This document shows positions 1 through 20,000 of a stretch of 20,000 bases of DNA, one piece after another. Location: positions 1-20,000 of the forward strand of contig JACVTC010000139.1 of NCBI GenBank assembly GCA_016946835.1, given 5' to 3'. The notes beneath the pieces are model-generated. The model did no database searches and was not told where the DNA came from. It saw only the letters and a list, made by a program, of their open reading frames with translations. The DNA is from Neocallimastix lanati (nom. inval.) (taxonomy: Eukaryota > Neocallimastigomycota > Neocallimastigomycetes > Neocallimastigales > Neocallimastigaceae). The position numbers and the translations under genes are program-made. Each line of letters starts with the position of its first letter. The first letter of the stretch is position 1.

Positions 1-280
1 CACATAGTATACATTACACCGAAATTTTTTGTAACTTTTAAACATATTTTTATTCTTTGATACATTAAATTAAATTTTCTATGATTAATTAAATTTTGTT
101 TCTTTATTTTTTTATTATTTTTAATTATTATTATTTTTTTATTTAACTTTATCTTTTCTATATACATTTTATTTTTACCTTTCTTTTTTATAATGTATAT
201 TTTTTAAAAATGTAATTCATAAAATATAATTCTCTATTTTATAAAACACTGGAAGTATATTCTCTTCCTTGTCTAAAAAA
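1..280 (+). mobile_element. LINE 3'-end fragment (copy A), partial at the window edge
   Basis: The last 30 bases (251-280) match almost base for base the 3' end of the LINE that finishes at 16227: GGAAG, an 8-base loop, CTTCC, then [T/C]TGTCT and a run of A. Upstream, the T-rich stretch and the opening acatagtat also resemble the LINE 3' UTR at 16072-16090. No coding part is visible. The copy is cut by the left edge of the window, so its 5' extent is unknown. Inference: a truncated insertion of the same family as the element at 11028-16227. The motif match is direct; homology of the T-rich part is weaker because such sequence aligns by chance. Confidence 0.45.
251..280 (+). repeat. LINE 3'-terminal hairpin motif, copy A
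   Basis: GGAAG and CTTCC form a 5-bp stem around an 8-base loop, followed by TTGTCT and six A. The same string recurs at 16194-16227 (one base different before the A run) and in degenerate form at 17874-17908. Confidence 0.6.
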
Positions 281-506
281 CGTCGAACAATTTGGTAAAA
301 TAAATTTTTTTCTTCTAAATGATAATGCAAAGAAGGAATTATGATAGAGATTTTAATGATAATATTAAACCACAAGATGTTATCATCAATTAATGGGAAG
401 AATTATAGGCTATTTCATTTTCGAAAACTCCTAATGTAGTTTTTTAATATTAATATGTAATTTTTTTTATATAAATATAAATAAAGTTTATTTCTAAACA
501 ACAAAT

Positions 507-509
<3 letters not shown>

Positions 510-542
<33 letters not shown>
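510..542. repeat. (TA)n microsatellite
   Basis: About 16 uninterrupted TA dinucleotides. Confidence 0.9.
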
Positions 543-545
<3 letters not shown>

Positions 546-768
546 ATAAAAAGATAAAATAAAACAAAATAAAAGGAAATTTGTAAATTATAAATATAAT
601 AATTATTTTTTTAAGTTTTTTTTTTTTTACGAATATATCTAAGTAAATTTCATATTTTATTACAATTAAAGTAATATGAAACAAACACAAACTATTATAA
701 TTTTGAGAATTTATAATAAATTTATTATATGAAAAGGAAAAAAGGAAATTTAATTAATAATATTAATT

Positions 769-963
769 ATTATTATTATTATTATTACTATTAATTAATT
801 AATTATTGTTACTATTATTATTTATTCATTATAATTATTCATTATTATTATAATTATTTATTATTATTATTATAATTATTACTATTATTATAATATTACT
901 ATTATTATTATTACTACTGTATTATTATTTATTATTACTATATTATTATTATTATTACTACTA

Positions 964-990
<27 letters not shown>
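769..990. repeat. (TTA)n microsatellite, interrupted
   Basis: Over 200 bases of TTA/ATT triplets broken by occasional C, G or dinucleotide changes, so an old, partly degenerate trinucleotide array. Confidence 0.85.
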
Positions 991-994
<4 letters not shown>

Positions 995-1372
995 TAAAAA
1001 AGAATCAAAATCTTATTACATCAAGTTTAAATTTAATATATCCAAAATATAATAATTAAAGTTTTAATAATTCTATAATATTTTAATTTAAAATTAATAT
1101 AGAATTTAATATAAATTTGTAATATTAAAAAATTAAATATTTAAATATATTTCATTTTATATTAAACTAATTATTAAGAAATCTAACTTTTTAATATAAG
1201 TTTAATAAAATATTTCATATAAAAATAGTTTAAATAAATACATTTATAGTTAAAAGAGCAAAAAATAATAAATAATAAATAATTTTAATATAAATTATAT
1301 TAAAAAAGAAATACATGTGTGACTAATTCAGGAACGAAATGAAGCAGTTCATGTTGTTCATGTTGTTCATGT

Positions 1373-1441
1373 TTGATCAATTTCAATATTGTTTTTCTTT
1401 TATTTATGCTTGATCAATTTCAATATTGTTTTTCTTTTATT
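1373..1441 (+). repeat. Tandem duplication, 37-bp period
   Basis: A 32-base segment starting ttgatcaatttcaatatt is present twice, at 1373 and 1410, without mismatch. Just before it (about 1348-1371) a 9-base unit, tgttgttca, is also iterated. The two together suggest a local slippage hot spot. Confidence 0.85.
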
Positions 1442-1869
1442 ATTAATACTATTCTAATTATTTATGTTTAATATTGATTTGGTTTTTTTTTTTTTTAATT
1501 TCTATTTGATTAATTGATCAGAACAAACAAATAATATAATACTTAATTATAATTCAAAAATAATAATAATAAAAATAAAAATTAAAAAAATAATTAATAA
1601 AAAATTACTAAAAAAATAACAATGATAAACAATTAAAAACTTTTATATTAAAAAAAAATATTATTAATAATTAATAATAAACTTCAAAAAAAAAAAAAAA
1701 TAAAAAATAAAAATAAAAATAAAAATAAAAAAAGTATCATTTAAAAATATTAATAGTATAAAAAAGCAAATATCAATTATTTTTAATTTATTTAATATAT
1801 TTAATTTTACTGATTGTATTTACCATAATTCAAAGTTTTTATAAATAGTCTAAAAAAAATAATTTTGAG

Positions 1870-1872
1870 AAA

Positions 1873-1906
<34 letters not shown>

Positions 1907-1918
1907 TAATATATATGT
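1870..1918. repeat. A21 tract followed by (TA)n
   Basis: An A run at 1870-1890 leads directly into TA dinucleotides to about 1918. Simple-sequence DNA; no function is visible. Confidence 0.85.
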
Positions 1919-1965
1919 AAATAAATATTATTAAAGGTGAAAAAAAATATAACTCAAATAAGAAA

Positions 1966-2107
1966 TTGTTTTAATAGTGGTCAATAAAAATATTGAAAAT
2001 TGAAATGGCAATAAATAAAAATAAGATATATATGTAGTTGTTTTAGTAATGGTCAATAACAATATTGAAAATTGAAAAAAAAAAAAATTGAAAAAGATAT
2101 ATATGGA
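1966..2107 (+). repeat. Diverged tandem duplication, 72-bp period
   Basis: The segment beginning ttgttttaatagtggtcaat at 1966 recurs at 2038 with a few substitutions. The shared stretch includes tattgaaaattgaaa and, further on, agatatatatg. The copies differ at several sites, so this is older than the 153-bp array at 18153. Confidence 0.8.
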
Positions 2108-3067
2108 ATAATGTAAGGTTGTAACTAAAATATAATAATAAAATAATAATAATAATAATAATAATAATAAACATTTAGTATTTTCTATATCAAGTTAATT
2201 CAAACTTTTTAAAGAGATATATGATGAATAATTAATTATTATTAAATAATTATAAATTATATGAGATAATAAGATTATTTAATAATATAGAGATTAAAAT
2301 CATCTTTGAAAGATTCAGTATTAGTAATATTATTGATATAATTAGTATTAGTTGGATAACGTATTATCAATAATATGAATAAATATTTTGTAATTCTATA
2401 CTTTATTACGCTTTTCAAAAAGAAAAATAATTCTCTTTTAAATAATATATACTTATTAAATATGTATTTATATATTGTTTCAAAAATATTAGTATATCTA
2501 CAAATTAATTATTTATTATTTAAATAATTTAAATAATTTAAATAAAAAACAATTTTAAAGTGTGAATAATTATTTATTATATTATTTAAATTATAATAAT
2601 GAAAAAAATAATATTATATATAAAAATTTTTAAAATTTTGTAAAATGAACAAATATATATATATATGTATATATTAAATGCAATTCAAAAAAAAAAAAAA
2701 AAAAAAAGAAAAAAAGTATTTGACAAATATTTAACATTAATATTAATTTTAATATTATAATAAAATACTTTATATTGTAATTTTTACTAATTCTTCTCTT
2801 TATTTTCTTATTTATTTTTATTTATTATTTATTATTTTATATTTATATATATATATTTTTTTTATAAAATTGTACTATTATATTTTAATATTATACTTCA
2901 TTACAAATGTTCCATTTATTAATTACTTATTTAAAATTTATTAATATTTCCCATAATATTAAAAAATTAATTATTGACAAAATTTTCATAATTTTTTTTT
3001 TTTTTTTTAATTATTATATGGTGCTATAAAAAATTAAATATTTTGTCTATTTTCAAATATATGTAAT

Positions 3068-3091
3068 ATAGAAGTATCTTTATACTTCTAT
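3068..3091. repeat. Perfect 10-bp hairpin
   Basis: The inverted repeat atagaagtat / atacttctat surrounds a 4-base loop (cttt). It contains two G+C pairs per arm in DNA that is otherwise nearly pure A/T, which makes chance less likely than for the many AT-only palindromes nearby. Its role is unknown. Confidence 0.7.
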
Positions 3092-5138
3092 GAATATTGT
3101 TATTGTTAAAATTTTATTTAAATGACTAATTCAAAATTAAATAAATTTTATTTTATTTTATTTGTAAAATATAAAATTCCTTTTAATAATATAATATCAT
3201 TTATTAAAATACTTTATAAATTAATTATTAATAGCTCATTTCTTTAATAATTGATTTTAAGGTACAATCATGTATATTTTACTATTTTTATATTAATATT
3301 CATTGAAATATTTAAACAATATAAAAATAAATATACAATACACATAAATTAAATTATATATTTAAAGAATATTATTTTAATTTTTTAAATCTTTTTTCTT
3401 TTAAACAATAAAAACTATTCTTTTATATATATATTTATTATTATAAAAATGATTATTTGATGATTTTTTAACAATCAAATAAATTTTAAAATTTTATATA
3501 ATAATAATATTAAGTATTTTAATTTAAACTTTTTTTTTTTTTTTCGTTTTTTCTTTCTTTCATTCAAGTATATTGATTATTATTTTAATTTAATTTAATT
3601 TAATTTAATTATTGTTATTATTATTATTATTTTTCATTAAATTAAAAATGGTAGGAGTTAATTAAAATAATTTATATATAAAGTTTAATATTATTTATTT
3701 TATCATTAATTTTATGACATTAATTATATATTACTATATTAATTGTTTTTTTATTCAAGTATAATTATACTCTAGTAATTTATATTTTAATAATAAACAT
3801 GATACAAAAAATTATTATGATATTAATAATAATGTGTTAAAGTATTACAAAAATAAAAATAATAGCCATAGTAATATAAGATGTATAGGATAACAATAAT
3901 TAATAAGTGTAATTAATAATTTTTTTTTTTAATTTTATATAATATATTAAAAATATTTTGTATATTATTATAACCTATATTAAAAATTAGATAATAATTT
4001 ATCTATTATACTATCATATGCTTAAATAAAACATAAAGAATATTATAAAAGATATTTTTCTTATTTTAAAATATATTGTAGTATTTGCACAATATCAATA
4101 TAAATGAAAAAAGTTATATATTGTATGAAAAAAAACAAACATGGAAATTAAATTATTTAAAAAATACTATATTTCACAATATTAAAGAGTTTAATAGTTT
4201 TAGGAATAAAGGTATTTTTAATTTTAAATGAAAAGAAAAGAAAAGAAAAAAAAAATAATAAATATATATTTAGCAAAAAAAAAAAAAAAAAAAAAAATCA
4301 GTTATCCCATTTATTTTTTTTAATAATTTTTCAATATTGCATTTATCAATATATTGACAAAATTTAAAAATTTTTTACTCTTTATTTATTTATTTTTTTT
4401 GTAGATGAGTAAAAAAAAAGTTAAAAAATGATAAAAATAATATTTTCAATATATTTAAACTCTAATATAATAAATATAATTAAATGTAAATCAATATATC
4501 TTATATTAATTAATTCTTTATTATTTTAAAAAAATATTTTTATTATTGTTACACATATTGTTATATTAATATTTTTTTAATACTTTTTAATTATTTAATA
4601 TTAAAGTTGAGATAAGGATAAAATAGTGAATAATATAAAAATTTTATTTATTATAATTCTTTGTATTTTCAAAAAAAAAATTTTTTTTTAATTATCTTTG
4701 AATAATATTTTTATTAATTATAATTATAATTATAATTTTAATTATTATTATTTTTAATCTTTATTTTTATTTTTATTTTTTATTATTTTTTTTACTATTA
4801 TTATTTTTTTTATTAATGATGATCTGTTGACTTTCTTTCAATATAAATTTTAAATGTATATTAATTTCCTGTGAAAGATATAGAAGAAATTATTTAATAT
4901 TATTATTAATCAAAATTAATGAAAAGAAAAAAAAAAAAAAAAAAAGAAATAATGTTTTGATTTTAATAAAATTAAAATTAATTAATTTTTTGTAAATTAA
5001 ATGGAAAAAAGTAATATTTATTATATACAATTTATACAATTTATTATTTTTTTTTTAATATTTTAAAATTATATAAAATGGTAAAAATTTCTTAAATTTT
5101 TTATTTCATTTTTTATTCAGTAATTCTTAATTGATAAA

Positions 5139-5144
<6 letters not shown>

Positions 5145-5182
<38 letters not shown>
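5145..5182. promoter_or_regulatory. A38 homopolymer tract upstream of the repeat-protein gene
   Basis: Thirty-eight uninterrupted A lie about 240 bases before the ATG at 5424. In other fungi poly(dA:dT) tracts keep promoters free of nucleosomes. Here similar runs occur in places with no gene (for example 18839-18870), so a regulatory role is inference only. Confidence 0.3.
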
Positions 5183-5184
<2 letters not shown>

Positions 5185-5307
5185 ATATATATATTATAAA
5201 ATATATATTTTTATAATATTTTTATAGATAAACAAAAAAATATATATATAAGTGTTTTAAATCACTAGTAAAGCTTGTGAATTAAAATTATTTAATAAAA
5301 TATTTAA

Positions 5308-5328
5308 AAAAATTCTTGAAGAATTTTT
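5308..5328. promoter_or_regulatory. Palindrome with TTCnnGAA core, possible heat-shock-type site
   Basis: The arms aaaaattct and agaattttt pair perfectly around tga. The centre, TTCTTGAA, fits the two-unit TTCnnGAA core bound by heat-shock factors, about 100 bases before the start codon. No third inverted unit is present, and the core could arise by chance in AT-rich DNA. Confidence 0.25.
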
Positions 5329-5423
5329 ATTAAATAAATACAAAATATAAAAAATATTAAAATAAAAATATTTAAGAAAGAATAAACTAATCCGTTATTT
5401 AATTAATTAATTTAAAATCCAAA

Positions 5424-8400
5424 ATGAAAAACGCCATTATTGGATCAATAATTCTTTTAATTGCTACAGCTTCCAAAGCTGCCAATCCATATCTTGTTTG
5501 TAGTCAAAACGATCATAATTGTAAGAATGAGCAAGCAAGTAAATGTCAACAAGTTGCAACCGCCTGTTGGCAACAACCATGGAGAGAAGGTCTTCAAGAA
5601 GAATGTGGTGCTTTAAACAATTTATGTAGTGAAATTTGGACATACCAAGGAGAACCAATTAGTAATGTTAATACTACATCAAAATCTCTTCCAAACACTA
5701 AAACTCTTCCAAACACTAAAACTCTTCCAAAAACTAAAACTCTTCCAGTAACCAAGACTCTTCCAAACACTTCTAAGACTCTTCCAAACACCAAGACTCT
5801 TCCAGTTACTAAGACTCTTCCAAACACCAAGACTCTTCCAGTAACTAAGACTCTTCCAAACACTTCTAAGACTCTTCCAGTAACTAAGACTCTTCCAAAC
5901 ACTTCTAAGACTCTTCCAGTTACTAAGACTCTTCCAAACACCAAGACTCTTCCAGTTACTAAGACTCTTCCAAACACCAAGACTCTTCCAAAAACTAAAA
6001 CTCTTCCAGTAACTAAGACTCTTCCAAACACTTCTAAGACTCTTCCAAACACCAAGACTCTTCCAAACACCAAGACTCTTCCAAAAACTAAAACTCTTCC
6101 AGTAACTAAGACTCTTCCAAACACCAAGACTCTTCCAGTTACTAAGACTCTTCCAAACACCAAGACTCTTCCAGTAACTAAGACTCTTCCAAACACTTCT
6201 AAGACTCTTCCAGTTACTAAGACTCTTCCAAACACCAAGACTCTTCCAGTAACTAAGACTCTTCCAAACACCAAGACTCTTCCAAAAACTAAAACTCTTC
6301 CAGTAACTAAGACTCTTCCAAACACTTCTAAGACTCTTCCAGTTACTAAGACTCTTCCAAAAACTAAAACTCTTCCAGTAACTAAAACTCTTCCAAACAC
6401 TTCTAAGACTCTTCCAGTTACTAAGACTCTTCCAAACACCAAGACTCTTCCAGTTACTAAGACTCTTCCAAACACCAAGACTCTTCCAAAAACTAAAACT
6501 CTTCCAGTAACTAAGACTCTTCCAAACACTTCTAAGACTCTTCCAAACACCAAGACTCTTCCAAAAACTAAAACTCTTCCAGTAACTAAGACTCTTCCAA
6601 ACACTTCTAAGACTCTTCCAAACACCAAGACTCTTCCAAAAACTAAAACTCTTCCAGTAACTAAGACTCTTCCAAACACTTCTAAGACTCTTCCAAACAC
6701 CAAGACTCTTCCAAAAACTAAAACTCTTCCAGTAACTAAAACTCTTCCAGTAACTAAGACTCTTCCAAACACCAAGACTCTTCCAGTTACTAAGACTCTT
6801 CCAAACACCAAGACTCTTCCAAAAACTAAAACTCTTCCAGTAACTAAGACTCTTCCAAACACTTCTAAGACTCTTCCAGTAACCAAGACTCTTCCAAACA
6901 CCAAGACTCTTCCAGTTACTAAGACTCTTCCAGTTACTAAGACTCTTCCAAAAACCAAAACTCTTCCAGTTACAAAGACTCTTCCAAACACCAAGACTCT
7001 TCCAGTAACTAAGACTCTTCCAAACACTTCTAAGACTCTTCCAGTAACCAAGACTCTTCCAGTTACTAAGACTCTTCCAAACACCAAGACTCTTCCAAAA
7101 ACTAAAACTCTTCCAGTAACTAAGACTCTTCCAAACACTTCTAAGACTCTTCCAGTTACTAAGACTCTTCCAAAAACTAAAACTCTTCCAGTAACTAAGA
7201 TTCTTCCAAACACTTCTAAGACTCTTCCAGTTACTAAGACTCTTCCAGTTACTAAGACTCTTCCAGTTACTAAGACTCTTCCAGTTACTAAGACTCTTCC
7301 AGTTACTAAGACTCTTCCAGTTACTAAGACTCTTCCAGTTACTAAGACTCTTCCAGTTACTAAGACTCTTCCAGTTACTAAGACTCTTCCAGTTACTAAA
7401 ACTCTTCCAGTAACTAAGACTCTTCCAAACACTTCTAAGACTCTTCCAAACACCAAGACTCTTCCAGTTACTAAGACTCTTCCAAACACCAAGACTCTTC
7501 CAGTTACTAAGACTCTTCCAAACACCAAGACTCTTCCAGTTACTAAGACTCTTCCAAACACCAAGACTCTTCCAGTTACTAAGACTCTTCCAAACACCAA
7601 GACTCTTCCAGTTACTAAGACTCTTCCAAACACTAAGACTCTTCCAAAAACTAAAACTCTTCCAGTAACTAAGACTCTTCCAAACACTTCTAAGACTCTT
7701 CCAGTTACTAAGACTCTTCCAAACACTAAGACTCTTCCAAAAACTAAAACTCTTCCAGTAACTAAGACTCTTCCAAACACTAAGACTCTTCCAAAAACTA
7801 AAACTCTTCCAGTAACTAAGACTCTTCCAAACACTTCTAAGACTCTTCCAGTTACTAAGACTCTTCCAAAAACTAAAACTCTTCCAGTTACTAAGACTCT
7901 TCCAAACACTAAGACTCTTCCAAACACCAAGACTCTTCCAGTAACTAAGACTCTTCCAAACACTTCTAAGACTCTTCCAGTTACTAAGACTCTTCCAAAC
8001 ACTAAGACTCTTCCAAAAACTAAAACTCTTCCAGTAACTAAGACTCTTCCAAATACTTCTAAGACTCTTCCAGTTACTAAGACTCTTCCAAACACTAAAA
8101 CTCTTCCAAAAACTAAAACTCTTCCAGTAACTAAGACTCTTCCAAACACTTCTAAGACTCTTCCAAAAACTAAAACTCTTCCAGTAACTAAGACTCTTCC
8201 AAACACCAAGACTCTTCCAGTTACTAAGACTCTTCCAGTTACTAAGACTCTTCCAGTTACTAAGACTCTTCCAGTTACTAAGACTCTTCCAGTTACTAAG
8301 ACTCTTCCAGTTACTAAGACTCTTCCAAACACCAAGACTCTTCCAAAAACTAAAACTCTTCCAGTAACTAAGACTCTTCCAAACACTTCTAAGACTCTTC

Positions 8401-8942
8401 CAGTAACCAAGACTCTTCCAAACACCAAGACTCTTCCAGTTACTAAGACTCTTCCAAACACCAAGACTCTTCCAGTTACTAAAACTCTTCCAAACACCAA
8501 GACTCTTCCAAACACCAAGACTCTTCCAAACACCAAGACTCTTCCAAACACCAAGACTCTTCCAAACACCAAGACTCTTCCAAACACCAAGACTCTTCCA
8601 AACACCAAGACTCTTCCAAACACCAAGACTCTTCCAAACACCAAGACTCTTCCAAACACCAAGACTCTTCCAAACACCAAGACTCTTCCAAAAACTAAAA
8701 CTCTTCCAAACACTAAGACTCTTCCAAACACCAAGACTCTTCCAAGAACTCAAGCTCAACCACAACCAACCAACTCTCAAAATGACTATTTAAGTTGTGG
8801 TGCTCAAGATTATGCTTGTAAGAACAAGATGTCTGAAGCTTGTTACGCTGAAGCTTCTGCATGTTGGTCAAAGCCATATTACTCAAATCAATCAAGTGAC
8901 TGTAATGCCATTAACAGTATTTGCCAAAAGATTTGGAGTTAA
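5424..8942 (+). CDS. Secreted K-T-L-P repeat protein with twin six-cysteine domains
   Basis: I do not recognise this 1172-residue protein. The ATG at 5424 opens a classic signal peptide (Lys2, hydrophobic core about 4-16, likely cleavage after SKA at 17-19). Residues 23-72 and 1122-1172 are copies of one domain with the same cysteine spacing: C26, C33, C41, C48, C61, C68 and C1125, C1132, C1140, C1147, C1160, C1167. Shared are YLxC, CKN, A[ST]ACW, Pro-aromatic and a closing IW. Between them, residues 87-1109 are about 167 units of KTLPxT, x being N, V or K, with 21 units carrying an extra Ser. The rod has no acidic residue, so it is strongly cationic, and Thr density invites O-glycosylation. 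No C-terminal GPI signal, membrane segment or intron is visible. Inference: an extracellular spacer, adhesive or wall protein holding two like domains apart. The six-Cys domain may bind a partner; it is not CBM1 (four Cys) or CFEM (eight Cys). Confidence 0.93.
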   Translation: MKNAIIGSIILLIATASKAANPYLVCSQNDHNCKNEQASKCQQVATACWQQPWREGLQEECGALNNLCSEIWTYQGEPISNVNTTSKSLPNTKTLPNTKTLPKTKTLPVTKTLPNTSKTLPNTKTLPVTKTLPNTKTLPVTKTLPNTSKTLPVTKTLPNTSKTLPVTKTLPNTKTLPVTKTLPNTKTLPKTKTLPVTKTLPNTSKTLPNTKTLPNTKTLPKTKTLPVTKTLPNTKTLPVTKTLPNTKTLPVTKTLPNTSKTLPVTKTLPNTKTLPVTKTLPNTKTLPKTKTLPVTKTLPNTSKTLPVTKTLPKTKTLPVTKTLPNTSKTLPVTKTLPNTKTLPVTKTLPNTKTLPKTKTLPVTKTLPNTSKTLPNTKTLPKTKTLPVTKTLPNTSKTLPNTKTLPKTKTLPVTKTLPNTSKTLPNTKTLPKTKTLPVTKTLPVTKTLPNTKTLPVTKTLPNTKTLPKTKTLPVTKTLPNTSKTLPVTKTLPNTKTLPVTKTLPVTKTLPKTKTLPVTKTLPNTKTLPVTKTLPNTSKTLPVTKTLPVTKTLPNTKTLPKTKTLPVTKTLPNTSKTLPVTKTLPKTKTLPVTKILPNTSKTLPVTKTLPVTKTLPVTKTLPVTKTLPVTKTLPVTKTLPVTKTLPVTKTLPVTKTLPVTKTLPVTKTLPNTSKTLPNTKTLPVTKTLPNTKTLPVTKTLPNTKTLPVTKTLPNTKTLPVTKTLPNTKTLPVTKTLPNTKTLPKTKTLPVTKTLPNTSKTLPVTKTLPNTKTLPKTKTLPVTKTLPNTKTLPKTKTLPVTKTLPNTSKTLPVTKTLPKTKTLPVTKTLPNTKTLPNTKTLPVTKTLPNTSKTLPVTKTLPNTKTLPKTKTLPVTKTLPNTSKTLPVTKTLPNTKTLPKTKTLPVTKTLPNTSKTLPKTKTLPVTKTLPNTKTLPVTKTLPVTKTLPVTKTLPVTKTLPVTKTLPVTKTLPNTKTLPKTKTLPVTKTLPNTSKTLPVTKTLPNTKTLPVTKTLPNTKTLPVTKTLPNTKTLPNTKTLPNTKTLPNTKTLPNTKTLPNTKTLPNTKTLPNTKTLPNTKTLPNTKTLPNTKTLPKTKTLPNTKTLPNTKTLPRTQAQPQPTNSQNDYLSCGAQDYACKNKMSEACYAEASACWSKPYYSNQSSDCNAINSICQKIWS
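5682..8750 (+). repeat. Coding minisatellite, 18/21-bp units
   Basis: About 146 units of 18 bp and 21 of 21 bp, always in frame, encode KTLP[NVK]T and KTLPNTS. Unit types carry linked codons: K units use AAA and ACT throughout, the V that follows a K unit is usually GTA, while V elsewhere is mostly GTT. A 57-bp superunit (K, V, N-Ser) recurs more than ten times. Two homogeneous blocks are the newest-looking: 11 V units at about 7219-7416 and 11 N units at about 8488-8690. Only a single Leu-preceding Ile (7200) and the terminal Ser and Arg variants break the pattern. Confidence 0.95.
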
Positions 8943-9841
8943 ATTTATGATTAAATAGAATTAATTATTTTAGTTGATTAATAGTCAATTAATTAATTAA
9001 ATAAAAGATTATATAATTATATAATTGATAATAATTTGAATAAATCATAAACATATTTTTATTCATTATTATTTAATATCAAAATTTAAAAAATTTTGAA
9101 AAAAAAAAAGGAATGAAAAAAAAATTAAAGAATTACTAATAATAAATAATTTAATGAAAATATATATATATAGATATATATAGATATATGGATATATGTA
9201 AAATCTTATTTTAATATATATATTTATATATAAGTAATATAAATATTTGAATATTTATGTTAAAATAAAAAATATATATATTTTTATATAAACTAATAAT
9301 AATTTAATAATAAAATAATACAAAATAATGATTTAAAAAGTTAAAAAATCATTATAAAACAACAAAAACAACATAAATTAAAATTATTAAAAAATAAAAA
9401 AAAAAAAAAATAATAATAATAATAATAATAAAATACAAAAAGAAAAACAAAAAAATAAAAAAGAAATATATTTTAAAAAAAAAAAAAATTTTTTTAAAAA
9501 ATTTAAAATATATATAATAATCTTCTATAATAATTAATATAATGAAGTATTAGAAATAAAATAATATAAAATATCATTTATTATTTTATTAAAATATTCT
9601 AATAAAAAAATAAATAATAATAGTAAAAGATAATTAATATATATAAATAAAATTTATAAATAATCAATAAAATTGTTAAATAATAAAAAAAAAAAAAAAA
9701 AAAAAAGAAATTTATAATTATTGTTTTAAAGCATAATTTTGGGAAATTTATATTAATATTATTAATTTTTATATTTAAATATTTATTAAAATTTATTTAT
9801 GAATTTATTAATATTAATATAAAGTAAATTTGATTCTATCA
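8943..9841. other. AT-rich downstream region
   Basis: The 3' flank of the repeat-protein gene. An AATAAA hexamer at 9000-9005 lies about 60 bases after the stop and could serve as a polyadenylation signal, but the hexamer is expected often in such AT-rich DNA. The rest is homopolymer runs and AT repeats with no gene visible. Confidence 0.6.
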
Positions 9842-10405
9842 ATGAATAATTTTTCATATTTTTTTATGAATAATGCTGCAAATACGTTAATTAAAGAAGA
9901 AAACTTAATAATGAATTTACATAGGTAGCCTTCATGAATCTTTAAAAAAAAGGCTATAGAAAGTGAACCGGATGTTTTATATTGATTTAAATTGGATATG
10001 TAGTAACATTGGAGTTGTATAACTAATAATATCATGTAGTTTCTACATATAATCATTGTAATGAATCTATTGTATTTTTTTACTTTAGCATTATTTTGTA
10101 TATGTATTTTTCTATTGTATTATTTATACTTTCATGTAGCTCTTGTAAAATGGAAATATAGGAAATTGATTCACTCCAAAGCTTGTGTTTAAGACATTAT
10201 TTAACGGATGGGAATCTTTTTTATAGTCTTTCTCTACTAATATTTTTTCCTTTTTTAAATATACTTTTAGCTAATTTATGATTATTCAACAGAAAATTTT
10301 TAACGTCTTAAAGAGATTTATTAATTGAAAGAATTACATTCAGTCAAAAGATAAAAAGAAACGATTATTCATTTTAACAGTATAAACAAGTAGTTTTGTA
10401 TCAAT
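9842..10405 (+). pseudogene. Decayed coding island, unrecognised
   Basis: This stretch is clearly richer in G+C than its surroundings and reads as coding with damage. From ATG 9842 one frame gives residues such as AANTLIKEENLIMNLH, then interruptions near 9926, 9935 and 9989. After a hydrophobic stretch (about 10060-10135) and a Lys/Arg-rich turn it stops at about 10192. The next frame (in phase with 10150) continues with LRHYLTDGNLFYSLSLL and RDLLIERITFSQKIKRND, again with stops. The switch of frame and scattered stops suggest a dead gene or exon. The hydrophobic segment followed by basic residues could be a membrane helix, but no family is recognised. It could also be the 5' part of the LINE downstream, from which a (TTA)n array separates it. 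Confidence 0.35.
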
Positions 10406-10611
10406 AATAACTTTCTAACCCTTGTGAAAAATTATAAATATGATAAAATCAAATCATCAAGAACGATATATTTCAATCTTTCTTATATTCAACACTAACA
10501 ATTTTTTTTATACTATTTAAAAGGGAGTTTACTTTCTCTTTTATTTTTTATTTTTATTTCATTTTATATATTGAAAAAAAAATATTTTATCTAATTTTAT
10601 TATTATTAATA

Positions 10612-10649
<38 letters not shown>

Positions 10650-10697
10650 TTATTATTATTATTTTTATTATTACTATTATTTTTATTATTATTATTA

Positions 10698-10744
<47 letters not shown>

Positions 10745-11027
10745 TTTATTTTATACTTCTTTTATTTTACTTTATTAGGCTCTTTTGAAATAAATAATAC
10801 TTCTTCAAATTCTGCAACTATACCTGTTTTGAGGCGAGGCCTTCGAAAAATTTGATATTCAGAATAATGATTTCATTCTTATCTTTATTCATGATCTTCA
10901 ATCATGATATGTTAGTAAACTTTGAGAATTTCTTAGTAAACATATTTCCAATTGCAATGAAATAGTTCATGGAATTACAAAAATAAGCACACACCTAATA
11001 TGGAAAATTACTTCATTTTAAGGATAA
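10406..11027. other. Intergenic spacer or LINE 5' UTR
   Basis: Holds the long trinucleotide array at 10597-10750. From about 10795 a G+C-richer stretch may be the 5' leader of the LINE, with broken coding-like text further on (10978-11137). No target-site duplication matching the 3' side of the element was found, so the left boundary of the LINE is not fixed. Confidence 0.4.
10597..10750. repeat. (TTA)n microsatellite
   Basis: About 150 bases of TTA triplets with a few T insertions and one C. Confidence 0.9.
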
Positions 11028-12215
11028 ACTATAATAAAACCCACTTATTATCTAAATATTTTATTTCTTCTTACCCATTGCCATTGCCTTCCAATCAACA
11101 AAATTAATTGGATCCAAACCAACAAAATCCGAACTTTCAGTGAAGTTAAGAAATTTAACAACAAATTTTCTTCTTTTGAAACTAAATCAATGGTTAAAGA
11201 TTTTCTATATAGTAGTATTTACTCATCGTCTACTCAGTTCTTTAATCTTTGTGTCAGTTGGAACATTAATGGATGGAATGATGAAAAACGCGATGGTATT
11301 AGATACTTTAATGAAATTTTTAAACCCATCTGTATTTGCTTGCAAGAGGTCGGTAATAGCCAATACCTTAATGTACATTCAAATAATTACCCATTTCTTT
11401 GTCACTATAATACAATTTTACGAAAAGCTGATCCAAATAAATCTGGTATGAGAGGTCTTAGTATATGTGTACATTTTTCTTATTCCTTTTCTCCAAATCC
11501 ATTTGAATATAAGTATATCATTTCTGTCAATATTACTTCTTTTGGGGGGAATTAAATGCACTATTGGTAATATTTATGTTCCTACGGTCACTCATAAGGA
11601 AGAAAGAACGAATGCCTTTCCAAAAAATTACTAATTGGATAAAGAAACATACTAATTCACCTTCTATTCTTGCAGGTGACTTTAATATGTCTAAAATCTC
11701 AATTAGAAAGTTTACTTAATAAATCATCTCATCAGTGGTTCACTAAAAACTTATCAGGTCTCGATTTCACATGGGCTCTGGATGGTAGATCGTCTTGTAT
11801 TGATCATGTTTTATTTAATTGTAAAATGAAAGAATACATTAATATGGTATCTGTTTGTAGTACATTCAATGATATTTCTGACCACTTCCCTCTTATCCTT
11901 TCCTATAAGAAAGATGACTCAGATAGTTTTCTTTCTCCTACTCCTTCAAGAAGATTCAAGTGGTCCCAACGCATATGTAATGAAAAGCATAATGAAATAT
12001 TCTCAAGTAACTACTTCTCAATTCTTCTTAATGAATTTAATGATAATAAAGAATTAAGTTCTAATGAAATGGTCAATAAATTTATAGAAATAGCCAATAA
12101 AGTTGGTGATAAAGTTCATGCTAGAGTTCCTTGTGATCTTAAAGGCTCAGCTTTCCACTGCCCTTATTATATCAAGAAACTTTCTCATGAAAAGTATGTT
12201 GGTTGCATTTTATGA
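11028..12215 (+). pseudogene. LINE endonuclease (EEP family) domain, frameshifted
   Basis: The domain would nick target DNA to prime reverse transcription. Family marks are present: the opening SWNING with Asn at 11262, the LQE glutamate at 11346, GDFN at 11675-11686, the DHVLF stretch at about 11797-11811 and the closing SDHFPL at 11877-11894. These are the catalytic Asn, Glu, Asp/Asn and Asp-His set of exonuclease-endonuclease-phosphatase enzymes. Three frames are needed: frame of 11190 to about 11550 (a G6 run at 11545 is the likely slip), then the frame giving IYVPTVTHKEERTN, another shift near 11616 before GDFN, and another near 11690 into the frame of 11670-12215. The first ATG at 11190 lies inside a frame already open from 11028, so the true start is uncertain. 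Confidence 0.8.
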
Positions 12216-12640
12216 AATCAAAAATTTTTCTTTAGGTCCTAATCTTGAAAAACCTTAATGATTTTTTAAATTTGCTTTGTAAAATATAAAAATATATGTG
12301 ATAAAGCCAGGTCAATTAAATTTTCTATTAAATCAAAACAATTTCATCAGTCTGAGAGAATCTGTATGTAATGATTTTCGTAACAAAAATGCTAGGAGTG
12401 CTTGGCTAAAAATTTAATAAAGAAGCTATCTCACCCTATATACTCTAATTCTATTTCGTCAAGTGTTTTAAAGGACAAGCAAGGTAACTTTTTTATTTTC
12501 TCATTCGGATCAATTGCATCGATTTGCTGAACATTATAATGAACTAGCTTCTAATGTTACTCAATATAGTCTGGATAATTAATACTGGGTTAATTTATTT
12601 GGAATTAATCCTAATAATAATCCATACTTTGGATACTAAT
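12216..12640 (+). pseudogene. LINE linker between endonuclease and RT, heavily decayed
   Basis: This region joins the endonuclease and the first RT module. Fragments read as protein in changing frames, with stops every 20-40 codons. No motif is recognisable, which is usual for this poorly conserved stretch of LINE proteins. It belongs to the first element by position only. Confidence 0.5.
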
Positions 12641-13620
12641 GATCCTATCACTATGGAAGAAATTCAAAATACTATGCTTGATAAGAAAAAATAATAAAGC
12701 TCCTGGCCCCGATGGTATTCCGATTGAATTTTTTTAAAGCCTTCTTTTTAGTGAATCTGATTTTATCTGATAATCAAGACGATCCTTCAGATGTTCACTA
12801 CTCTAATTGTGCTAAATGTTTAACTTTCATTATTTAATAAAATTTGGGATGGTGATTTCCCTGAAGAGTGGAATTCAGCTTCTATAATATCAATTCCAAA
12901 AAAAAAGGAGATCTTTCAGATTGCAATAATTATCGTGGTATTTCTCTTATTAATGTTGCCTTAAAAATCATTTCAAAGATTGTTACTAATAGAATTGCTA
13001 AATATGCCTTAGACCATAAATTTATTAGACCTGAACAATTTGGATTTAGAAATAAAGAAGAATGCATAAGTTTATATATTTCAATTAAAGAAATATGTTA
13101 GAGAAGAAAATTTCAAGGAAATTTTTACTTATCTTGATTTTCTCGATCTAAAAAAAGTGTATGATTCAGTACCTGTCTTTAATATTTTGACCAAATTATA
13201 TAACTTAGGAATTAGAGGTAAATGTCACCTATTTTTAAGGAACCTTTATTTATCCTCTAAAGCTCGTGCTTTTTATAATGGTAATATCTCAGAAGAATTT
13301 TCGATTAATCGTGGTTGTTCGACAAGGATGCCCTCTATCTCCTATTTTATTCAGTTTGTTCATTAATGATGTACTGGATAATTGTGATAAGTAAGGTGTA
13401 TATTTAGAATCTCAGTATTATTGTGGTGGACTTTTTGCCGATGATATTGTTTTAGTTGCTCCATATAAACAAGTTCTTAAGAAAACTTTGAAGAAGGTTC
13501 ATGAATTGGCTATTAAAAATGAATGAAATGGCTTTTGGAATTAATAAGTGTGCTACTCTTGTTGTAAAACCGATCAAACTTTGTTAAACCGATAAATTAT
13601 GAAGATCTTCTGCTTGGAAT
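12641..13620 (+). pseudogene. First reverse transcriptase module, broken and 3'-truncated
   Basis: RT blocks appear in the right order: PITMEEI (12644), PGPDGIPIEF (12702), FPEEWNSASIISIPKK (about 12857), YRGISL, RPEQFGFR (about 13030), the motif A aspartate in LDLKK[V]YDSV (Asp 13145-13147), the QGCPLSP block (about 13324-13344) and the catalytic FADD of motif C (13434-13445). At least five frame changes are needed (about 12693, an A9 run at 12898, about 13140, one extra T near 13316, about 13530). Stops lie at 13099 and 13390. Alignment with the second module continues through CATLVVKP and NYEDLLLG and ends near 13620, so the thumb and C-terminal part are missing. In motif A the usual Ala is Val. 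Confidence 0.85.
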
Positions 13621-13823
13621 ATCAACGGTCCAATTACAATTGAAGATATTAAAAAAAAAAAAACTATTTCATCAATGAAAAACAACAAAGTACCCGGCCC
13701 CGATAGTGTCCCGATTGAACTCTATAAAGTTCTATTTTGTTATGAAGAATTACTAGAAACGCATCCTGCTGCTGGAAAATGTCTTAAATTGATATTTAAT
13801 TAAATCTAGAATGTGTCCTTTCC

Positions 13824-13864
<41 letters not shown>

Positions 13865-15677
13865 AAAAATGGAACTCAGCTTCTATTGTATCTATCCCTA
13901 AGAAAGGTGGCCTATCAGATGGTAGTAACTATTGAGGCATTTCTCTCATTAATGTTGGACTGAAAATCATTTTAAAAATTATAATAGATAGAATATCTAC
14001 TTACGTACTTACATACAATTTCATAAGACCTGAACAATTTGGTTTCCGCAACCGTGAAGAATGTATTAGTTTATTCATTTCCGTTAAAGAAATTTGCCAA
14101 AGAAGAAAATTCCAAGGAAAATTCACATATTTAGCCTTTTTAGATCTTAAAAAAGAAAAAAAAAGCTTATGATTCAGTTCCTATTTTTAACATTCTTACT
14201 AAATTATATCATTATGGAGTACGTAGTAAATGTTTTGATTTTCTTTGTAATTTATATACTTCATCTAAAGCTCGTGCTCGATTTGCTTCAATGTTATCAA
14301 ATGAATTTCCTATTAAAAGAGGTGTTCGTCAAGGTTGTCCATTATCTCCAATCTTATTCAATTTATTCATCAATGATATACTAAATGAGTGTGAAAAGTA
14401 TGGTGTTAATATTGGAAGAAAAAAGTGTTGTGGTGGACTCTTTGCTGATGATGTTGTTCTAATTGCTCCAAGTGCAAAAAATTTAGAAAAATTACTAAAA
14501 AAGGTACATAGATGGGCTAATTTAAATGAAATGACTTTTGGTATTGAAAAATGTGCAACTATGGTTATAAAACCAATGAACTTCCAATCTCCTCCAAACT
14601 ATAGTGACCCAACCTTCTATTTAGGAATGAATGCTATTCCTAAAGTTTCTAGTTATATTTATCTTGGTATTCCTTTTTCTGATGATCTCTTACTAGAACA
14701 CATTATATCTCACATGCATTTTAAAGTTAGAAAATCCCTTCTTTCATTTACACATTTCTTCTTAAATAAACTTGTTCCTATTGCATACAAGAAAAAAGTT
14801 CTTCAATCCTTTGTTATTAGTAAAGTAATTTATTATTCTCCTCTACTTGGTTCAAACAAATCTAGAACGGCCAGAATTCAAACATTAATTAATACTGGTC
14901 TATTTTGGTGTATCGGCTCCTTCTCTAAAAATGATAAAACAAATTCAGAAAACAATGTCTCTATTAGACATAATTCTACTATGAGTACTTACGCTTTATC
15001 TCGAGATCTAAGTATCCCTCCTATTGCTGGTATCTGCGCAGCCTTACAGATTAAATCTTTTGCAAAATGGAGTAAATCAAATTGTATTATAAAGGATCTT
15101 ATTAAATCTATTCCCAAAATGCCTTATGATTCCTGGACTAAAGAATCTAGAACTTTGTACAAAAAAAATCAAAAAATATAAATGTGTAAAATATGACGAT
15201 ATTTTAGAACGTTACTGGAAATCAGTTTCCAAATTTCAAGGTATTAAAGGTCAAAATTACGATTGTAATAAGTTCTCAAACAATAAAGGTATAATTATGC
15301 TTAGCTTTAAATATCCCCAATTCAACTTAGGGTTTTCGTGGATTATACGTTTACGCTGTGTTTATAAATACAATACTACTATTGCTATTAGAATATGTAG
15401 AGTTTCAAAAGATTGTCCCAAGACTTGCCCCTGTCGTGGCGAAGGTAATCAATCTTTTGAGCATTGGATTTTTAAATGCGATGCTTTCGCATCTTATAAA
15501 TGGAACTCTTTAAATTTCATCGATGATCTCTATGTTTTATTCCTTAGGAAGATTAGAGCGTTTAATCCTCTTTCTTCCTATGACTCTATTTCTAATTTTG
15601 AAGATTATATCAATCATTATATATACTTGTTCCTTCTTGGTGGGACTTTAGCTTTAAATGAAGCTACATTTCGATAG
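13621..15677 (+). pseudogene. Second reverse transcriptase module with C-terminal Cys/His knuckle
   Basis: Homologous to the first module but more complete at the 3' side. It starts at ITIEDIK (about 13631) with PGPD (13693-13704), RPEQFGFR (about 14028-14052), motif A LDLKK (Asp 14143-14145), RQGCPLSP (14327-14350), FADD (14441-14452) and LGIPFSDD (about 14663). Lesions: TAA 13801, an A-rich insertion at about 13827-13869, TGA 13933 and 10 extra bases (14155-14164) that split motif A between LDLKK and AYDSV. From 14165 to 15181 one frame is open (about 338 codons). A slip in the A run near 15167 moves the rest into the frame of 15126-15677, which holds DCPKTCPCRG...H..FKC, a zinc-knuckle pattern typical of the LINE C-terminus that would bind nucleic acid. 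No RNase H domain is visible. Confidence 0.88.
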
Positions 15678-15681
15678 TGGG

Positions 15682-15994
15682 GAACAGAGACAATTAAATG
15701 AACTTCTTTTCAAAGGTTCATCTGAATCACCTGTTCCAAAAAATTGGGGGCTTGGCAGAATTCTTAATAGACGAAATACCCATCATAAGTAGTTCGTTTG
15801 AGTTATTATTTGATAGGTATTCCAAATTACCAAACTTAACCAAGAGCTTCGACGTCGTACAGATAAGACATAATGATAATACCGGATCATCATCTATTTC
15901 AACGAAGGATGAATCTCGCCTTAGTAGTTCAATAAATGATGAATCCAGGGAGAGTTTAGTGGACACCACACTATCTCACACTATCTATTTTTGA
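15682..15994 (+). pseudogene. LINE C-terminal tail, Ser-rich, frame uncertain
   Basis: After the stop at 15675-15677 the sequence still looks coding. One frame gives QRQLNELLFKGSSESPVPKN and then GRILNRRN up to about 15785. A second frame (ATG 15698, 98 residues) ends with ELLFDRYSK and a Ser-rich part containing KDESRLSSS and NDESRES. The copy at 17300-17593 has a 97-residue frame with the matching ELLFDWYCK, which favours the second frame for the distal part. Probably the frame shifts between the two. A separate small product is possible but unsupported by any start signal. Confidence 0.45.
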
Positions 15995-16227
15995 AGATGT
16001 TACTTCTAGGTTTTATTATTTTTTTTTATTTGTTAGGAAGGAAAAATTCCCATATAATACAACTTGTCGAAATACATAGTATTTTTGAGCTTTTTTATTT
16101 TTTATTTTTTTTTTTTTAACTTTTATTTTTTTATTTTTAATTTATAATGCACTTTTCACCTACATATACTTTTTATAAGATTTATAAATTTATGGAAGTA
16201 TATTCTCTTCCCTGTCTAAAAAAAAAA
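15995..16227 (+). other. LINE 3' UTR
   Basis: T-rich, non-coding, with G+C-containing patches near 16040-16080. It ends with the hairpin motif at 16194 and an A run. The corresponding parts of copies A (1-280) and C (17594-17908) are recognisable mainly at the terminus. Confidence 0.6.
16194..16227 (+). repeat. LINE 3'-terminal hairpin motif, copy B
   Basis: GGAAG-tatattct-CTTCC, then CTGTCT and ten A. It lies 200 bases after the last coding-like frame and marks the probable end of the element. LINE RTs of several clades recognise a 3' stem-loop; that role here is inference. Confidence 0.65.
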
Positions 16228-16387
16228 TTCATACAAATTTGACATTCATCATAGAAGGTATCCATATTTCTCCTATTTTTTTTTTTTTAATTTAATTTAT
16301 TTATCACTTAATGAACAATATGGTACCTTTAACTTTTTTTCTTTTTTAAAAAAAATATATATATATATATATATTTTAAAAACATAT

Positions 16388-16531
16388 ATGATCAGTAAGG
16401 CTCTTTGTACTTCATTATGTCCCTTGAACTTGATTTCAATAAAATTCGTACTTGGCATATTCAATATTCAATCTTTAATTAATATTGATATACTATGGCA
16501 TGGTGTAGTTCATCTCATAATATCAATATAA
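16388..16531 (+). CDS. Small ORF of 47 residues, unrecognised
   Basis: ATG 16388 to TAA 16529-16531 in a patch richer in G+C than its flanks. The product has two Cys (in CTSLCPLN) and is otherwise hydrophobic and Ile-rich. It is in the same frame as the ORF starting at 16553, with three stops between them. It could be an exon remnant, flanking genic DNA into which the LINE inserted, or chance. No family is recognised. Confidence 0.2.
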   Translation: MISKALCTSLCPLNLISIKFVLGIFNIQSLINIDILWHGVVHLIISI

Positions 16532-16552
16532 AAAATTTAAATAAATTAAAGA

Positions 16553-16705
16553 ATGGTTTATCTTGAAAAAAAGGTCACAGTCACAGTCACAATCTACATT
16601 AAAAAGAAATTCTACCATTGGGAACTTATAACTTATATATCCTTTATCGAGACCCTTCAAACCTTGTTTTCTATGTATGACGACAAACGAAAAAAGCTTC
16701 AGTAA
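16553..16705 (+). CDS. Small ORF of 50 residues with Val-Thr repeat, unrecognised
   Basis: ATG 16553 to TAA 16703-16705. The start reads MVYLEKK, then VTVTVT encoded by three exact GTCACA units (16574-16591), then a Lys patch, an aromatic stretch with HWELITYISF, and a basic end. The codons and amino acid mix look like real protein, unlike the AT-only surroundings. A reverse-strand frame across the same bases (Cys-Asp repeats) is also open, so strand is not certain. It may be an exon fragment of a lost gene. Confidence 0.25.
   Translation: MVYLEKKVTVTVTIYIKKKFYHWELITYISFIETLQTLFSMYDDKRKKLQ
16574..16591. repeat. (GTCACA)3 hexanucleotide repeat
   Basis: Three exact units at 50% G+C, inside the small ORF at 16553. 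It is conspicuous in this AT-rich DNA. Confidence 0.85.
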
Positions 16706-16804
16706 AAATGAAAAAAAAAAAAAAAAATCTAATGGCATTATTAAAAATATTTCAATTCTGTGTAAATATTTATTCATTATATTAAAAAAAATCTCATACT
16801 ATTT

Positions 16805-16856
<52 letters not shown>

Positions 16857-16890
16857 TTAAAGAAAAGAAAAGAAAAGAAAAGAAAAGAAA
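16805..16890. repeat. (AAT)n then (AGAAA)n microsatellites
   Basis: About 14 AAT units (16805-16848), an A-rich bridge, then six pentanucleotide AGAAA units (16860-16890). Confidence 0.85.
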
Positions 16891-17281
16891 TATCAAAAAG
16901 TTTAGTGATGTTATTAAAGTTATATTTGTCTGATATTATAACCAAACAAGATATTTAAAGAAAACTAAATATAATTAATTAAAATTCATTCATTTTACTT
17001 TCACTGGATATTTGAATCTTCCACTTTTTTTTATAATGTTTATAGAATGAAATCATTAAATTAGCATCAATAACCCTTTTTTACTTTGTTTTGGAATTAC
17101 AAAAAAAAAATAAAAAAAAAAAAATAAATAAAAAAAAAATAATAATAATAATAATAAAGAAATTACTTTTATTCTCTTTCTTTCTATTCATCTCTTTTTA
17201 GATTATGAAAAAAATAAATTTAATGAATATATTTTTATGCGTTCCTTTTTTTTTTTGGTGAACATTAACTTTAGATAAGGT
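16891..17281. other. AT-rich spacer
   Basis: Homopolymer A and T runs and a short (AAT)n at about 17140-17156. No coding or RNA gene is visible. Confidence 0.65.
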
Positions 17282-17483
17282 ACAATTAAATACTAGGGGT
17301 TGGGGGAAAAGAACTTTTTTCAAAGAATTCTGGGTCTTATACTACGTATATCGTTAGTCTTGAGAATTACCTTACCAACCCTATTCCAGTTAGTAGTAGC
17401 TCTCTCTCTTGAGTTACTCTTTGATTGGTACTGTAAAAAAAAAACGACCTTCACAATCAAGAAAGTCAAGAGAATTACAATCT

Positions 17484-17501
17484 TACACACACACACACAC
17501 A
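17484..17501. repeat. (CA)9 microsatellite
   Basis: Nine AC dinucleotides inside the LINE fragment. The other dinucleotide arrays in the window are TA. Confidence 0.85.
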
Positions 17502-17780
17502 AACAAATAATAATAAATCGTTCTTCACACAACAGATCTATAGAAATTGAATGGTCTGATAATATTTCTCTTGATTTGATGGGGAGTGTTTAATGGCTAT
17601 CATACAATCTACTTTAAAAGATGTTAACTTTTTTTTTTAACTCTATTTTATTAAACTTTTCTTGGTAGAGATGATTTCGATACAAATTACAATATCATAA
17701 TTCAAAAAAAAAAAAAAATTTTTTTTTCTTTATTTTCATTGTATTACATTAACTTTATTTTTTATTAAATTCTATTTTTA

Positions 17781-17812
<32 letters not shown>

Positions 17813-17873
17813 CATTTGATACATTTTTTATATAATAATTTTCTTTTTTTTTTTTTTAAAGATATAAAGTGAT

Positions 17874-17908
17874 GGAAGTGTATTCTCCTCTAGTCCAAAA
17901 AAAAAAAA
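17874..17908 (+). repeat. LINE 3'-terminal motif, copy C (degenerate)
   Basis: ggaagtgtattctcctct, agtcc, then twelve A. It aligns with copies A and B, but the right arm of the stem is altered, so the hairpin is weakened. Confidence 0.5.
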
Positions 17909-18152
17909 CTAATTTTAATAAAATCATATTAAATTTGGTAATATATTAGAAAAAATAATAATAATATAAAAAAAACATATAATTACTAAATGATATATAT
18001 TTATATTTATTTTATAGATAAAGTAAATTATCAAGTCATAGAGCTAATTATTTAACTGGCTTATTAATTTGATAAATATATATATATATATATATACCAA
18101 GAAATACTAAAAAAAAAAACTGTTCCATAAACCTTATTAAAAAAAAAATTGT
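17909..18152. other. AT-rich spacer
   Basis: Contains a (TA)n run at about 18079-18097. No gene is visible. Confidence 0.65.
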
Positions 18153-18611
18153 ATATTAATTCTATTAAATATACTTTATATAATTATTATTTTATCATTC
18201 ATTATTTCTATTATTATATATTTACTATCAAGTAATAACCAATATTATTAAACTTTTTCAATTTTTTTTATTGATTATTTACTATATTTAATTTTACTAT
18301 CCAAAATATTAATTCTATTAAATATACTTTATATAATTATTATTTTATCATTCATTATTTCTATTATTATATATTTACTATCAAGTAATAACCAATATTA
18401 TTAAACTTTTTCAATTTTTTTTATTGATTATTTACTATATTTAATTTTACTATCCAAAATATTAATTCTATTAAATATACTTTATATAATTATTATTTTA
18501 TCATTCATTATTTCTATTATTATATATTTACTATCAAGTAATAACCAATATTATTAAACTTTTTCAATTTTTTTTATTGATTATTTACTATATTTAATTT
18601 TACTATCCAAA
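18153..18611. repeat. Three exact tandem copies of a 153-bp unit
   Basis: The unit begins attaattctattaaatatac at 18155, 18308 and 18461, always 153 bases apart, and I see no mismatch among the three copies. It contains caagtaataaccaatatt and ends tttactatccaaa. No coding potential. Exact identity means recent amplification, or an assembly artefact. Confidence 0.93.
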
Positions 18612-18830
18612 CTATAATTTAATAATTTAACATGATTGTTCTATTATAGCTATTATTATAATTATTATAATAATTAATAGTATAATTAAAAATGAATATA
18701 GAACTTAATTATAACAATTTAATATTATTAATATTTCAAATAATTTATAATTAATTTTCCTCATTTGACTTTGAAAAAAATTTTTTTTCTTTCTATAATT
18801 TAAATATATATATTATCTTCATTCTTTATT

Positions 18831-18871
<41 letters not shown>

Positions 18872-19575: not shown

Positions 19576-19607
<32 letters not shown>

Positions 19608-20000
19608 CTTAAAAGATATTTGGTAATAACAAATATTTATTGAGTATTTAAAGATTTAATTTATAAATTTGAAGTATTTGTCATAGATGCTATAGTATAT
19701 TTTTTTTTTATTCCACATTTAGATTAATATATCAATTTATATTTTAATTTTATCATTTCTTTTTTTTTTCTTTTTTTTTTTTTTTTTATCTTTTTTACAT
19801 TTTCTAATTTTATAATAATAAATTTATTTTTTTTTTTTACTCTTTTTTTTATATAAAAAATTATTTTTATTTTAATAAAAATAAAAAAGGAAAAATAAAA
19901 ATATTTAAATTATATACAATTTAAACATTTTAAATTTAAGGAATATTAATATAAATATATTTATTTATTAAATTGAAATAATAATAATAATAATAATAAT
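18612..20000. other. AT-rich DNA without recognisable genes
   Basis: Homopolymer runs (A32 at 18839-18870, A27 at 19581-19607, long T runs near 19759-19788), short AT palindromes and a closing (AAT)n at the window edge. Nothing coding is seen on either strand. Confidence 0.75.

Follow-up and report, generated by a model that had tools for sequence, protein, structure and literature searches.

In the 20,000-nucleotide stretch of the Neocallimastix lanati genome analyzed here (contig JACVTC010000139.1, positions 1 to 20,000 of the forward strand; the window), one gene encodes a protein with a leader peptide in which a long rod of KTLP repeats, free of acidic residues, is held between two different members of a family of small six-cysteine modules. 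The family appears, within the open-license papers covered, to be new to description. Its members fall into two types, heads and tails, each with a fixed terminus, and also stand at the ends of cellulases and other secreted enzymes, in one case where a close paralog carries a dockerin. With slightly more belief than doubt, we read the protein as a secreted, noncatalytic, asymmetric bivalent tether whose ends would bind targets in the fiber-digesting layer.

The open reading frame at 5424..8942 on the plus strand runs from ATG to stop in a single exon and specifies 1,172 amino acids in the order leader, six-cysteine module, KTLP rod, second six-cysteine module and stop, the second module ending one residue short of the C terminus (Table 1). 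The initial annotation of this frame had proposed a leader, two homologous six-cysteine ends and an acid-free rod, all of which were confirmed by the open frame and a motif count. Its figure of 167 units lacking Asp and Glu also stood, with the rod length corrected from 1,023 to 1,021 residues (87 to 1107), and the end domains it had placed at residues 23 to 72 and 1122 to 1172 proved to be homologous six-cysteine ends with limits that we redrew to 20 to 72 and 1119 to 1171. The units consist of 166 matches to K[TS][LI]P and one KILP, and Tandem Repeats Finder resolved the array into an 18-bp unit present 166.5 times (score 3334), far beyond what chance would give; units vary in their codons, a seven-residue form (KTLPNTS) occurs and stays in frame, and no frame break occurs along the array. 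By composition the rod is T 331, K 189, L 167, P 167, N 72, V 72, S 22 and I 1, with no D or E, and at 35% T+S and 16% P it is a long Ser/Thr/Pro-rich repeat region of the sort that characterizes mucin-like proteins. If the leader is 19 residues, the mature protein weighs about 125 kDa, with an isoelectric point of 10.8 and a charge near +185. Pfam returned no catalytic domain, the only match to the whole protein being Drf_FH1 within the rod, and sequence reading found no hydrophobic C-terminal stretch suggesting a glycosylphosphatidylinositol anchor or a membrane span.

Table 1. Features of the two-headed rod gene in the window (pLDDT, predicted local distance difference test)
Feature	Positions	Strand	Basis
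Secreted two-headed rod gene	5424..8942	+	Open frame with ATG and stop; paralogs share the head-rod-tail order
Signal peptide, residues 1-19 (MKNAIIGSIILLIATASKA)	5424..5480	+	Sequence reading, without a signal-peptide program; a hydrophobic leader also precedes the head in two-headed paralogs
Head-type six-cysteine module, residues 20-72	5481..5639	+	Six-Cys spacing; head clade 100/99; predicted helical hairpin, mean pLDDT 82.8
Short hinge, residues 73-86	5640..5681	+	Sequence reading
Rod without D or E, 167 KTLP-type units, K 189, residues 87-1107	5682..8744	+	Motif count, Tandem Repeats Finder, composition
Short hinge, residues 1108-1118	8745..8777	+	Sequence reading
Tail-type six-cysteine module, residues 1119-1171	8778..8936	+	Six-Cys spacing; tail side of tree; predicted helical hairpin, mean pLDDT 85.7

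The two modules of the window protein are 37% identical and share the spacing C-x6-C-x7-C-x6-C-x12-C-x6-C. Our survey covered this one genome (199 Mb in 762 contigs), by six-frame search without gene models. A search with the head alone gave at least 70 matching sites with E values up to 10; with two sites on contig C68 set aside, these lie in at least 58 open frames, of which 45 match at E 1e-3 or better, counts that are lower bounds and include a few frames that are exons of one gene or contain stops. More than one match was present in nine frames, eight with a head plus a tail and one of a tandem type. In an alignment of 30 modules found by BLAST, all six cysteines were kept in every row (C-x6-C-x7-C-x6-C-loop-C-x6-C), gaps were confined to the loop, and no Gly or Pro was invariant. 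Both head and tail are predicted to fold as a helical hairpin, in models built on two-sequence alignments, and this hairpin is probably stapled by disulfides, presumably pairing Cys1-Cys2, Cys3-Cys6 and Cys4-Cys5; an even number of invariant cysteines fits internal pairing.

The initial annotation was to stand only if the ends matched no well-described family, and searches of Pfam and the Protein Data Bank (PDB) found no such match. The 30 modules matched no Pfam family, those of carbohydrate-binding modules (CBM) included, with 0 of 30 matching the fungal dockerin profile PF02013 at E 0.1, and the one trace for the head was a very weak match to PF08095 (E 0.21). No PDB sequence was matched at a meaningful E, Foldseek comparison of the hairpin models with PDB gave nothing at E 0.001 or better, and no bacterial, archaeal or viral relative was confirmed. 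The modules are under purifying selection: the ratio of nonsynonymous to synonymous divergence (dN/dS) was below 1 for 569 of the 585 module pairs that could be used (of 780) and in 202 of the 218 pairs with dS below 1 (median, 0.50), and the ten closest pairs had dN of 0 to 0.009 against dS of 0.08 to 0.17. Tandem, divergent six-cysteine modules in long and short forms also occur (L051, L071 and L072, with a Lys/Thr-rich end in L051), and the short tandem forms make up a clade of their own in the tree of all rows (support, 99/97).

Heads and tails are distinct types, each tied to one terminus, which replaces the earlier picture of symmetric ends formed by two copies of one domain: the window protein carries one member of each type. 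Fifty nontandem modules with the six-cysteine pattern in the retrieved loci divide into 11 heads and 39 tails. Every head lies near the start of its frame, and 38 of the 39 tails lie within 6 residues of the frame end, the exception being the first of two modules in a deacetylase. In a tree of 46 modules, which omits 8 of the 54 rows (two heads, two long-branch tails and four tandem modules), a branch with 100/99 support separates nine heads from 37 tails; many other forks are weak because the alignment has only 53 columns. The types also differ residue by residue. Column 3 is Pro in 11/11 heads and 0/39 tails, an aromatic residue follows Cys3 in all 39 tails and one head, and column 51 is acidic in every head and in no tail, most tails (34 of 39) having K or R there. 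This charge inversion is confined to column 51 and does not extend to the whole module, since median net charges differ little (-3 for heads, -2 for tails).

Seven two-headed rods were found, namely the window gene and six paralogs (two at L032 and one each at L033, L034, L037 and L044), in which the spacer varies (PPKTSTG, SSTVAT, NAQPTAA, NQNQNQP or SGGNA), KTLP is constant, and both end types are kept. Together with an eighth head-plus-tail protein that has two CE2 esterases in between, they show that an architecture first taken as unfamiliar is not unique here. Other rods carry a tail: in those of L036, L039, L042, L045 and L067 to L070 the leader runs directly into the rod, and for L038, L040, L041, L043, L046, L047, L049 and L050 no head was found in the retrieved stretch, nor was the first exon identified. 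Contigs C43 and C741 (L049, L050, L040 and L041) hold tandem arrays of near-identical tail-bearing rod genes, in whose modules synonymous change is well over nonsynonymous change. Two of the tail rods, those of L036 and L042, also contain, twice, a different small cysteine motif (CTKI...DCxPGY...C) amid KTIP-type repeats, without a Pfam match at E 0.01.

Like a dockerin, the six-cysteine module is a terminal, noncatalytic module on secreted fiber-degrading enzymes (eight GH5, one GH30, one double CE2 and two Agd3-type). Pfam identified a GH5 cellulase ahead of a C-terminal tail in 8 of the 8 cases retrieved and scanned, one of which has as closest solved relatives 3ayr (an endoglucanase) and 8ghx (CelD); several further family members, among them a ninth probable GH5 (C654:748158) and part of a cluster on C113, appear as search hits. 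The GH30 enzyme, also identified by Pfam, has an N-terminal head. Both Agd3-type deacetylases carry the module (L062 and L063, with L081 and L080), and each has a further module in a probable spliced last exon. Two additional heads, at L060 and L061, begin frames of 448 and 489 codons of which the beginnings were read.

On contig C761 the GH5 enzyme of L057 ends in a six-cysteine tail and a paralog about 4 kb away (L065) ends at the equivalent position in a double dockerin, a swap seen in this one pair, other pairs not having been searched for. The dockerin-bearing GH5 matches PF02013, and the module-bearing enzymes do not at E 0.01. PPKTLP or PPKSLP occurs in the GH5 linkers of L055, L058 and L064. 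Among KTLP rods that lack the module, a GH10-KTLP-CBM1 architecture is found in L073 and L074 (Pfam), and CBM1 follows the rod in L076 (Pfam) and in L075 and L077 (by reading); two more KTLP frames, L078 and L079, have another ending or were not followed to their end. Given the dockerin swap and the CBM1-ended rods, we regard KTLP rods as a class of linkers in this fungus, with the module occupying the place of a targeting module. The rod's composition, which the initial annotation had linked to adhesive proteins, is not specific to them, since acid-free KTLP rods also join xylanases to CBM1.

Among 36 rods with at least 8 motifs in the retrieved loci, a set in which some are cut at the locus end, L048 includes its esterases, and L066 is omitted for its N run, 28 have no Asp or Glu and the window rod is the longest pure one. 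Rod length and spacer differ widely between paralogs. The omitted L066 is a KTLP-type frame of 1,792 codons that is mostly N run between rod and tail, and L078 has a KTIP/KSLP rod, then a Thr-rich stretch, then a globular C-terminal part without a Pfam match at E 0.01. In L073, the SKTLPGN rod (residues 386 to 466) scored E 2e-37 against a grass ice-binding beta-roll profile, an identity that we dismissed as a low-complexity match. As fungal low-complexity regions are reported in one survey to be depleted in Arg and Lys (PMC11878562), the KTLP rods are compositional outliers among them.

These observations, read together, suggest how the window protein could work. Because the same module fills the dockerin and CBM1 slot on extracellular enzymes, we infer a targeting role for it, and a noncatalytic protein with a targeting module at both ends of a long flexible rod would be a tether; a bivalent linker, as first proposed, is the natural reading of the architecture. 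The rod would serve as a flexible, strongly cationic and probably O-glycosylated spacer of the KTLP linker kind, with a reach of up to a few hundred nanometers (an estimate that allows about 0.3 nm for each of the 1,021 residues). Its ends would be helical-hairpin terminal targeting modules, with the role that dockerin and CBM1 have on other enzymes, and the N-terminal head and C-terminal tail would hold together two targets, probably different, in the extracellular fiber-digesting layer or the wall matrix. Distinct head and tail types suggest either two different targets or a meeting of heads with tails.

Several points weigh against a tether of this kind. Many rods bear a tail with no head found nearby, and two-endedness is therefore not general. 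The spread of enzymes, from plant-wall enzymes to Agd3-type deacetylases, indicates no single ligand. The structure models were built from alignments of two sequences and lack a confident PDB match, and polysaccharide-binding modules are rarely all-helical. Finally, when every one of the 54 rows is kept, the tree places the heads with both Agd3 tails (100/99), perhaps through long-branch pull; one row of that set was mislabeled, and an approximately unbiased test of it gave p 0.15. From the Agd3-type enzymes, whose described relative has a fungal exopolysaccharide as its substrate (PMC7229062, PMC4817252), there is also a hint that the targets of the module may include the matrix of the fungus itself.

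Two narrower accounts of what the module binds are each possible, and we hold both tentatively; a carbohydrate and a protein ligand seem about equally probable. The module might be strictly a carbohydrate-binding module, for plant cellulose or xylan or for the fungus's own chitin or exopolysaccharide, with the rods cross-linking polysaccharide or sticking hyphae to fiber. Its CBM1-like position at the end of KTLP linkers, the polysaccharide substrates of the attached enzymes and the conserved aromatic residues all agree with this, the latter following Cys3 in 39/39 tails and Cys4 in 37/37 tails and 9/9 heads of the tree set. However, the fold predicted is a helical hairpin and not a beta fold, the aromatic after Cys3 is present in only 1 of 11 heads, the Pfam scan of 30 modules gave no CBM family, and strict head and tail classes would be unexpected in a plain polysaccharide binder. 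Alternatively, the module might dock onto protein, much as dockerin does, and so anchor enzymes and rods in a partner; this is favored by the predicted helical fold, by the swap with dockerin and by the division into heads and tails. Against this, published scaffoldins are described as dockerin binding (PMC8262932), and no link from them to the module was seen here.

A more elaborate form of protein binding is improbable in our estimation: heads would bind tails as a complementary pair, two-headed rods would join head to tail in long cationic polymers, and enzymes would plug into the chain ends, the tail-bearing GH5, Agd3-type deacetylases and CE2 protein and the head-bearing GH30 alike, giving anaerobic fungi a second, dockerin-independent assembly system alongside the cellulosome. 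Such pairing is suggested by the strict split between N and C termini, the separate clades and the charge inversion at column 51. About as unlikely is that these are mucin-like coat or matrix proteins, with modules that are mere caps or sites of interchain disulfides and a repeat length under little constraint. The Thr, Ser, Pro and Lys content of the window rod, the wide variation in rod length and spacer among paralogs and the many tail-only rods would suit a coat, but purifying selection on the module, its presence in the targeting-module place on at least four enzyme families and the even count of invariant cysteines (30/30), which fits internal pairing, argue otherwise. Finally, it is very improbable that the gene is a nonfunctional, expanded 18-bp satellite open by accident, for although the repeat is almost pure and antisense frames of 1,046 and 1,033 amino acids are open too, the leader and both conserved modules are intact and in frame, paralogs have the same order with different repeats, the modules are under purifying selection, and the array has a G+C content of 38% against about 10% in the flanks.

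The asymmetric tether that we favor resembles several known systems in part. A repeat linker in xylanase B of Neocallimastix patriciarum, published by Black et al. in 1994 (cited in PMC3177772), is reported to be built of an octapeptide with SKTLPGG; there, too, KTLP recurs in tandem along a secreted protein from the same fungal phylum, whereas the window rod sits between two six-cysteine modules with no catalytic domain adjoining. The fungal dockerin (PF02013, CBM_10) is likewise a small, cysteine-bearing terminal module on fiber-degrading enzymes, which the six-cysteine module replaces on one GH5, but the latter lacks a PF02013 match, is predicted to be helical, and is divided into heads and tails. 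CBM1 (PF00734), like the module, stands terminally, after a KTLP linker; the module has no Pfam match to PF00734, another cysteine spacing and another predicted fold. CHCH proteins, alpha-hairpinins and hefutoxin are helical hairpins stapled by cystines, with twin C-x9-C or twin C-x3-C motifs. The module is similarly predicted to be a two-helix hairpin with cysteines on both helices, and the head's very weak PF08095 match belongs to this resemblance, yet the module's spacing is C-x6-C, and it has no significant sequence or fold match.

Fungal scaffoldins (ScaA) are described as repeat-rich, dockerin-binding proteins of over 500 kDa (PMC8262932), and the window protein is also large, repeat-rich, secreted and noncatalytic; it differs in its size of about 125 kDa and its 6- to 7-residue linker repeat. 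Rusticalin-type repeats, cysteine-rich and paired, with conserved Gly and Pro, are reported on lysozyme and peptidase domains of Neocallimastix californiae hydrolases (PMC7379824). They share with our module a place on secreted hydrolases of a related fungus, and by the published description they would differ from it, the 30-row alignment of the module having no invariant Gly or Pro.

Part of the window sequence recurs elsewhere in the assembly. Positions 1819 to 11724 match C68:8000-17900 (L031) in reverse orientation at 99.93% identity, with 0 mismatches and 5 gap openings, and because the stretch lies near the start of both contigs we take it as one locus seen twice. The C68 copy is probably not a second gene and is most simply explained as an unmerged overlap of contig ends. 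On the plus strand from 10900 to 16000, the window holds remnants resembling a long interspersed nuclear element, with an endonuclease-like piece (by reading) and reverse transcriptase pieces across several frames, including an RVT_1 match at 14291-15181 (Pfam, E 2.3e-18). In the genome as a whole, PF02013 had at least 150 matches (all 150 that were scored; the first look had given 1,440 candidates) and none in 14 control genomes; this abundance and the very AT-rich flanks place the genome among the anaerobic gut fungi, the setting that the initial annotation had supposed.

According to two papers, the cohesin partner of the fungal dockerins is still unknown (PMC8262932, PMC10485095). With a terminal module that replaces a dockerin on a cellulase near a dockerin-bearing paralog, and that caps noncatalytic rods at either end, counting dockerins would leave some of the fiber-degrading system of these fungi unseen. 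The KTLP repeat is an already known kind of linker, from xylanase B, which becomes one case of a widespread and mostly acid-free class of rods in this genome; the six-cysteine module is apparently new. The module is also a small, expressible domain suited to direct tests of attachment, and it probably represents a new way of placing enzymes.

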